A stretch of DNA of 38,223 bases from IMG/VR virus record IMGVR_UViG_3300012009_000219, positions 1-38,223 of that record, one strand, 5' to 3'. The notes below the pieces were generated by a model. The model was not told where the DNA came from, did not search any database, and worked only from the letters and a program-made list of their open reading frames with translations. The translations under genes and the position numbers were made by a program. Every line of letters starts with the position of its first letter. Position 1 is the first letter of the stretch. Origin of the DNA: a virus. Shown in pieces: positions 34,528-35,903 of the stretch.

Positions 34528-35529
34528 ATGAAAAATGATTATCGAAAACTTAGTATTCAAGAATATGTAGATTTAGATCGTTTAAAAAACATTCATACTC
34601 TTACTATTAAAAAAAATCTTTCCTATTTAACTTCTAAACTAGGAACTCCTTCTTTATTTAATGACAATAATTATCCCGCCAATCGTTTTCAGACTTTGTT
34701 TTGTTGGGGCTTAAAAAAAATTAATCTCATTGATCAAGATGTGGTTACCCGAAAAGACAATCTTGAAGATAAAACCATAGCTAATGAAGCTATCATCATA
34801 TATGCTGAAAATCCTAATAAGCAAAATTTTAATCTCATGAAGACTATTGGGGAGGAGGAATATAATATTGTTTTAAAATCACCTTCCAAAAGTATGATTG
34901 ATGATTTTTTAAATCTCTTAGATTCTAAAAAAGATACAGTTAAAATGGTTGATCAGAATGTAGATATGAATTTTTTTGAATTTACAGAAGATAAAGAAGA
35001 AGATAAAGAAGAAGATAAAGAAAAAGATAAAGAAGCACTGCAATTTATCAAAAAAAATAAGGATGAAGAAGTTAAAATAGATAAATGTTCTTTTGGTTAT
35101 AAAAATAAAAGTACGGAGTTAGAAGAAGCGGTAAATGAAATGGTTATTAATACTCAAATTGATGATGAAACCGGAGAAATTAGTCAAATTTTAGTTCAAA
35201 TGGCTGATATCGAGGCTCGAATTGCTACGGAAAAAGAAAATCTTCAAACTTTAACTAAACAACTAAATGATGTTAAAGAACGGAAAAAAAGAGAACAATT
35301 TTTTATTCCCTATGGGATTAGCGGGCTTGATAACAACATAAATAAAATTGAATTATTTGATCAAATCTATACCACTTTGAAGGATTTTTATGTTAAAAAT
35401 TTAACGCCCGAAGCAATCATAATTCAAAAAGAAGAAGTGGACTTACTTCATCAAATTTTACAACTGATTACTCATAATAGTGAGGAATTAATTGAAATTA
35501 TAAAATCGAAATCTATTACTGAAATATAA
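34528..35529 (+). CDS. Hypothetical protein with Asp/Glu/Lys repeat and coiled coil, 333 aa
   Basis: Three parts can be seen: a globular N-terminal 145 residues with MKNDYRKLSIQEYVDLDRLK; an acidic low-complexity run EDKEEDKEEDKEKDKE (about 154-169); and a C-terminal half with a coiled coil (EARIATEKENLQTLTKQLND) and a last helical segment. No family recognised. Its stop codon overlaps the start of the sorting-domain protein (TAATG), so both are made together. A coding tandem repeat in the linker can vary in length by slippage. Confidence 0.6.
   Translation: MKNDYRKLSIQEYVDLDRLKNIHTLTIKKNLSYLTSKLGTPSLFNDNNYPANRFQTLFCWGLKKINLIDQDVVTRKDNLEDKTIANEAIIIYAENPNKQNFNLMKTIGEEEYNIVLKSPSKSMIDDFLNLLDSKKDTVKMVDQNVDMNFFEFTEDKEEDKEEDKEKDKEALQFIKKNKDEEVKIDKCSFGYKNKSTELEEAVNEMVINTQIDDETGEISQILVQMADIEARIATEKENLQTLTKQLNDVKERKKREQFFIPYGISGLDNNINKIELFDQIYTTLKDFYVKNLTPEAIIIQKEEVDLLHQILQLITHNSEELIEIIKSKSITEI
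34987..35035 (+). repeat. Coding tandem repeat (GAAGATAAAGAA units)
   Basis: About four copies of a 12-base unit GAAGATAAAGAA encode the Glu-Asp-Lys-Glu run of the 333-residue protein. The last unit is altered (AAAGATAAAGAA). Unit length is a multiple of three, so copy number can change without breaking the frame. Confidence 0.7.
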
Positions 35530-35903
35530 TGATTAAAAATCTATTAAACTTCATATTACTCATAATAATAGCCTTATGTGTTATGAGTTTTAATCAAGTT
35601 AAAATGAATGGTAATTATACGATTAGGACTATTCATACCGTTAAAATTGAAGGTTATGAAATTGTAGTTTTTCCTAATTCCACCTCTGATCAAGTAATGG
35701 TTAAAATAAATGAAATACCCAAAAAAGGCATTACGGTCACAATTTTTGATATTAATGGTAAAAATTTATTAAAAGTGGTCGGAACCAATGAACAATTAGA
35801 ATTTGCTCTAGAGATGAAAAACATACCGGCGGGGAATTATCTCTTAAAAGTGGCTGATAATAAAGGCAATCACCTTCAAACTTTCCAAGTCATTAAAAAT
35901 TGA
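35529..35903 (+). CDS. Signal peptide plus stand-alone T9SS sorting domain, 124 aa
   Basis: An N-terminal hydrophobic signal (about 4-20, LLNFILLIIIALCVMSF) is followed by a short spacer and then a type A C-terminal sorting domain of type IX secretion (residues about 45-124). The three hallmark blocks are VVFPNSTSDQV (the PN-x motif), VTIFDINGKNLLKV, and MKNIPAGNYLLKVAD followed by FQVIKN. In Bacteroidota this domain steers large cargo through the outer membrane and is cut off by PorU. Here no cargo domain exists, so the protein would be a bare sorting signal. It is the last clearly phage-side gene before the cassette array. Confidence 0.82.
   Translation: MIKNLLNFILLIIIALCVMSFNQVKMNGNYTIRTIHTVKIEGYEIVVFPNSTSDQVMVKINEIPKKGITVTIFDINGKNLLKVVGTNEQLEFALEMKNIPAGNYLLKVADNKGNHLQTFQVIKN

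Follow-up and report, generated by a model that had tools for sequence, protein, structure and literature searches.

What use could a phage have for a T9SS sorting signal to which no cargo is attached? Here, we describe a gene in a 38,223-nucleotide viral record (IMG/VR IMGVR_UViG_3300012009_000219, the whole of which is called the window below) whose product is a cargo-less type A T9SS sorting domain (CTD) protein of a phage. An earlier note on this DNA had described a signal peptide and a sorting domain with almost nothing between them, and that description is borne out by profile searches, shuffled sequences and predicted fold. Features of the locus and their coordinates are listed in Table 1.

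Table 1. Features of the CTD gene, its product and its surroundings in the window (CTD, sorting domain)
Feature	Coordinates	Strand	Size or residues	Basis or remark
CTD-only protein gene	35529..35903	+	124 aa, ATG start	ORF call, profile matches, shuffle test
N-terminal hydrophobic region, putative signal peptide	35529..35591	+	residues 1-21	sequence; helix 2-20 in model
Linker, predicted hairpin, sole candidate cargo	35592..35660	+	residues 22-44	AlphaFold2 model
Type A CTD, seven predicted beta strands	35661..35900	+	residues 45-124	profiles and model
PN-Ser motif	35673..35681	+	residues 49-51	comparison with 80 cellular CTDs
Gln120 at near-invariant Lys position	35886..35888	+		comparison with cellular and phage cargo CTDs
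Upstream gene, charged product, no known family, no signal peptide	34528..35529	+	333 aa	
RNA ligase, same operon	33808..34485	+		orthologues (51-54%) in LR756502 and LR745206
Membrane-anchored coiled-coil protein, same operon	33281..33811	+		weak Rz-like spanin match, E 0.011
Opening gene of apparent operon, unknown	32805..33278	+		
Tail sheath	27669..31424	-		44% over 100% of length to 735-kb phage LR756501

The protein leaves room for about 24 residues outside its signal region and CTD, and shuffled windows contain a mean of 0.05 ORFs as long as the 124-aa frame. Its N-terminus is hydrophobic, with candidate cleavage sites that are acceptable under the -3,-1 rule (between ALC and V, and between VMS and F) and without a typical S/A-Q site, and is regarded as a putative signal peptide. 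A lipoprotein reading was rejected because the sequence has no canonical lipobox; the segment I-A-L-C has Leu at -1, where G/A/S is required. Loss of a cargo domain through a sequencing error was likewise rejected: one uninterrupted reading frame runs through signal region, linker (24 residues) and CTD, and the ORF upstream is a gene of its own that lacks a signal peptide, so a frameshift cannot hide a cargo.

The profile search that the earlier note proposed matched both sorting-domain families above their cut-offs, with TIGR04183 covering residues 47-123 of 124, at the extreme C-terminus (E 1.3e-9, 37.9 bits, cut-off 23), and PF18962 (Por_Secre_tail) covering residues 47-118 (E 1.5e-9, 38.4 bits, cut-off 27). 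On our own profile of 60 cellular type A CTDs the protein scores 39.0 bits, the maximum among 300 shuffles being 7.7. Its nearest cellular relatives are the CTDs at the ends of 946-aa Flavobacterium proteins (L031-L037; 34-38% identity, E to 3e-10). AlphaFold2, given a nine-sequence alignment, places a helix at residues 2-20, a small hairpin at 23-37 and seven strands within 45-123 (mean pLDDT 80), seven being the number of strands given for CTDs (PMC11285876). The model matches the CTDs of mirolase (8qb1, Z 9.0) and RemA (8gl6, Z 8.2) as well as PorZ (5m11, Z 7.8), and other Ig/Fn3 folds similarly. Searches of the PDB with a profile of the window protein and its phage relatives returned the solved T9SS CTD chains 8glj (5.9e-9) and 8glk (6e-8) and no DUF3244. 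CTD-like tandem proteins of Flavobacterium reach 32.9 bits on the same 60-CTD profile, so the score alone is no proof of a working signal; the domain is assigned to the CTD by profile, with no claim that it works as a sorting signal.

The sequence blocks from which the earlier note read a sorting domain do belong to one, with two departures from the usual signature: the PN-x block is PN-Ser and not Pro-Asn-Pro, and the Lys near the C-terminus is replaced by Gln120. Among the usual CTD features, all of which lie outside the formal definition, the Gly of the beta3-beta4 loop (G77) and the G-x-Y motif (G102, Y104) are kept. The third residue of P-N-P is Pro in 78/80 cellular CTDs and Ser51 in the window protein, and the fourth residue before the C-terminus, here Gln120, is Lys/Arg in 74/80 cellular and 9/9 phage cargo CTDs; these counts are not independent, since three related genomes contribute orthologues to the 80, and for the 20 weaker CTDs residues were read from printed sequences. 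At the Lys position the minimal type A protein of LR756501 has Arg and that of LR745206 has Glu, the latter also lacking PNP. Gln120 aligns with Lys1110 of RemZ (1114-residue chain), which is described as nearly invariant and important for function, its main role probably lying not in binding but elsewhere in transport (PMC10994853).

The CTD gene looks like the last of an operon, after four same-strand ORFs, and its start codon shares one base (TAATG) with the stop codon of ORF 34528-35529. RNA ligase is the only upstream neighbour common to other huge phages, and it sits elsewhere in those genomes; no orthologues of the neighbours at 33281 and 34528 were found in five huge phages. The tail sheath is next closest to those of 642-, 635-, 636- and 462-kb phages, and the other tail genes agree. 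A scan with the single tail-sheath protein as query found no match, whereas an alignment of six sheaths did give matches. From its tail sheath we place the window, a 38-kb record, as a fragment of a Mahaphage-like huge phage. The Mahaphages include the 634-, 636-, 642- and 735-kb genomes and have Bacteroidetes as their predicted hosts (PMC7162821), and by analogy with this clade alone the window phage probably infects Bacteroidota. The region next to the CTD gene (36303-37926) has the look of an integron gene-cassette array, with small orphan ORFs between attC-like repeats (TAACGG ... GTTAGGC or GTTATAA, imperfect inverted pairs). Four further viral contigs share the motif, L134 among them showing a clear array (10555-12391). 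Searching for attC sites by regular expression lacked selectivity. Integrons in phages are already known (PMC9892861). Further genes of the window, at 1737-2285, 281-685, 1449-1672 and 6975-8678, are those for a rhomboid protease, the peptidyl-tRNA hydrolase Pth2, tRNAs for Gly and Leu, and a large protein that binds RNA (phrog_850).

T9SS signals are common in this one clade of the largest phages: type A (PF18962) matches occur in 5/5 of the closest huge-phage records, that in LR756500 below cut-off, and type B signals in 2/5. No type A CTD was matched in one Lak phage or in four phages of Flavobacterium, Tenacibaculum and Chryseobacterium. Most of the huge-phage matches are ordinary cargo proteins, such as a two-component-propeller protein, and IMG/VR relatives add further cargos, such as a laminin-G protein. 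A match in the IMG/VR contig with the closest sheath (G040) was rejected as a false positive, an Fn3-like stretch. In LR756501 (L014 622-1962) one CTD-like domain sits in mid-protein ahead of a Fib_succ_major domain, whereas a normal signal is C-terminal. Minimal type A proteins are found in LR756501 (735-kb phage; 136 aa) and LR745206 (635-kb; 116 aa from an inner ATG), and LR756502 (642-kb) and LR745206 each contain, among their type B signals, one minimal form (116 and 107 aa, respectively). Neighbours of the minimal genes in these other phages differ from those in the window. When viral contigs were searched with the type B form, 51 relatives emerged, mostly larger cargos. Seven contigs (L246, L247, L248, L250, L251, L260 and L282) encode 110-113-aa type B proteins in which the signal peptide runs straight into the CTD, lengths for L246 and L247 assuming an inner MKKLL start. 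Those of L248, L250 and L251 are identical, and the L248 protein leaves only some two residues between its apparent cleavage site and the CTD. In two distant phages the minimal type B gene lies near a phage tRNA nucleotidyltransferase gene (L230 3009-4554; L250 3001-6112), which may be coincidence. A conserved protein of about 730-840 aa with signal peptide and type B CTD, found in 14 viral contigs of up to 290 kb (L232-L239, L241-L244, L249 and L258), is a widespread phage T9SS cargo family.

Selection was estimated as omega from Nei-Gojobori counts on few pairs, with binomial p-values that ignore transition bias. Between the LR756501 form and L283 (82% identical) omega is 0.21 (0.14 for the CTD part, p 1e-4; 0.29 for the N-terminal part), and in the type B family (L247, L248 and L260) it is 0.08-0.13 (p below 3e-5). 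Two families of cargo-less phage CTDs are under purifying selection and so are not remnants, which argues that such proteins are kept for function in phages. No close relative of the window protein was found in IMG/VR or in the phage collection, so for the window gene selection can be argued only by analogy. Given that cargo-less forms of types A and B recur in related phages, with purifying selection wherever it could be estimated, the part of these proteins that functions is probably the CTD itself.

For a cellular baseline, three Flavobacterium genomes were sampled, together with one Bacteroidales genome for type B. Short CTD proteins in Flavobacterium comprise one of 111-112 aa per genome, tandem DUF3244-like proteins of 121-134 aa, and proteins of 144-163 aa beside RHS-like genes. 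Each of the three genomes (L197, L198, L199) has four tandem signal-peptide proteins of 121-134 aa with a CTD-like/DUF3244-like domain. The 144- and 163-aa CTD proteins (L200 486-920, L203 341-832) adjoin RHS/SpvB-like genes and may serve to carry RHS proteins through the T9SS. Among CTD ORFs that exceed the cut-off, excluding a fragment of a broken gene (G003:C17:77968), minimal forms make up 4/19 in phages and 7/152 in cells (Fisher p 0.02), in counts that are small, lack phylogenetic correction and were set up after the pattern was seen. By type, the figures are 2/7 vs 0/55 for type B (p 0.011) and 2/12 vs 7/97 for type A, for which enrichment is not significant (p 0.26; 0.40 when all are counted). 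The enrichment of minimal forms in phages is suggestive, not strong.

Since the CTD carries nothing, its likeliest role is to act on the T9SS machine. In solved translocons the CTD lies inside the SprA pore, on PorV loops (PMC10994853). The window protein would be exported by Sec, fold its CTD in the periplasm and dock on the PorV/SprA translocon of the host, and with nothing else attached the docking itself would be the function. Most likely, the infected cell's export of its own type A substrates would be interfered with or modulated. This account, a cargo-less type A CTD that docks on the translocon and modulates host export, is the best explanation that we can offer as a whole, and it is put forward tentatively, at less than an even chance. 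The earlier note had proposed a decoy that occupies the machinery; that idea holds up in part, but simple titration is disfavoured for type A. In F. johnsoniae, overproduced type A CTD fusions are secreted efficiently, with no clogging; published work infers a surplus or recycling of PorV, and it is the type B shuttles that are in short supply (PMC12618676). A simple decoy is therefore a credible reading of the type B forms but a weak one of the window protein, which might instead be a substrate that is released slowly or comes to a dead end. The presence of Gln120 where a Lys is near-invariant would make a dead-end, non-released substrate more plausible than titration, and would fit a substrate that is bound but not passed on. 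This dead-end version, without the Lys, is the one that we prefer for the window protein, again at less than an even chance. What the phage would gain, such as masking or removal of surface receptors or superinfection exclusion, is a guess.

Two other explanations are serious rivals. The protein may be a very small secreted or surface protein, exported by the T9SS or another route, whose N-terminal hairpin or Ig-like domain acts outside the cell, as may also hold for Fjoh_0547. The 111-112-aa Flavobacterium protein matches it in size and layout while keeping PNP and Lys, related phages encode many other T9SS cargos, and culture supernatants contain Fjoh_0547 (112 aa), even those of sprA and porV mutants (PMC7712824), so by analogy a tiny CTD protein may bypass the T9SS. 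Against such a role, only the short linker is available beyond the CTD and some relatives have almost none, the CTD of the LR756501 family is more constrained than its N-terminal part, and the window CTD lacks the Lys; we consider it unlikely, yet the strongest of the competitors. The second serious rival, a DUF3244-related stand-alone Ig-fold protein that is periplasmic or membrane-anchored and no longer linked to the T9SS, draws on the model, for which the best structural matches are the DUF3244 proteins 3d33, 3sd2 and 4g5a (Z 11.8, 10.3 and 9.1), above the best CTD match; 3d33 also aligns with the N-terminal hairpin. The altered PNP and Lys and the weak signal cleavage motif would suit it, and Flavobacterium has its tandem proteins of this kind. 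Sequence profiles point the other way: the DUF3244 score of 20.5 bits does not reach the cut-off of 25 and compares with 38.4 for PF18962, the tandem-family profile gives 16.8 bits vs 39.0 for the CTD profile, and the nearest genome matches are genuine cargo CTDs. No DUF3244 match was found in the huge phages. This explanation appears slightly less likely than that of a small exported protein.

Less likely than either is a decaying remnant of a larger cargo protein that has lost its functional domain, for which both altered signature positions would speak and which selection cannot test on a gene without a close relative; the open frame, the gene's own signal region, the one-base overlap with the upstream gene and the purifying selection on relatives of the same layout make it improbable. 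The earlier note had also suggested a cargo carrier, which would bind another phage product and bring it to the surface. The Flavobacterium CTD proteins beside RHS/SpvB-like genes show a suitable layout, but the window gene has no secreted, CTD-less partner beside it, 0/4 upstream genes look like secreted cargo, and the neighbours, RNA ligase excepted, are not shared with other huge phages. The carrier idea therefore finds no candidate partner here and is very improbable.

Taken across phages, the recurrent cargo-free T9SS signals of types A and B might be dedicated interference proteins, type B titrating scarce PorP/SprF-like shuttles and type A dead-ending on PorV/SprA, so as to alter the surface of the infected cell; as a general claim this is speculative, and we would rate it unlikely as it stands. 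If true, phages would manipulate the whole secretion system behind gliding adhesins and surface enzymes, and cargo-free CTDs would be natural probes of a poorly understood transport step, that in which the conserved Lys has its role. The word 'secretion' is absent from the main text of the paper describing the clade (PMC7162821). In the literature searched we found no account of cargo-free CTD proteins as a class that recurs in phages and is under selection, which does not prove that none exists.

Neither component is without precedent. The architecture of signal peptide and CTD only is already known in bacteria: Fjoh_0547 and the Flavobacterium 111-112-aa proteins (L039-L041, of which L041 is equated with Fjoh_0547 from size and genus alone) consist of a signal peptide, a short linker and a type A CTD, the layout predicted for the window protein as well; they are chromosomal, and L039-L041 retain PNP and the near-invariant Lys. 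Phage-encoded T9SS cargos were also known before; in the available parts of the reports on Cryophage (PMC7468147) and crAss-like cluster 2 (PMC6949934), phage genes likewise carry T9SS sorting domains, no cargo-less form is described in those parts, and the Cryophage CTD proteins, unlike that of the window, have enzymes or a PA14 domain attached. The 946-aa secreted proteins of Flavobacterium have the nearest type A CTDs, but these end a large cargo. DUF3244 (PF11589) shares its fold and small single-domain layout with the window protein and differs in that the window sequence scores below its cut-off and that its members are not known here as T9SS substrates. PorA of Porphyromonas gingivalis (PGN_0123) is also a small CTD protein, tied to T9SS regulation and with a CTD that binds PorV, but at 246 aa it has a FimH-like domain ahead of that CTD.
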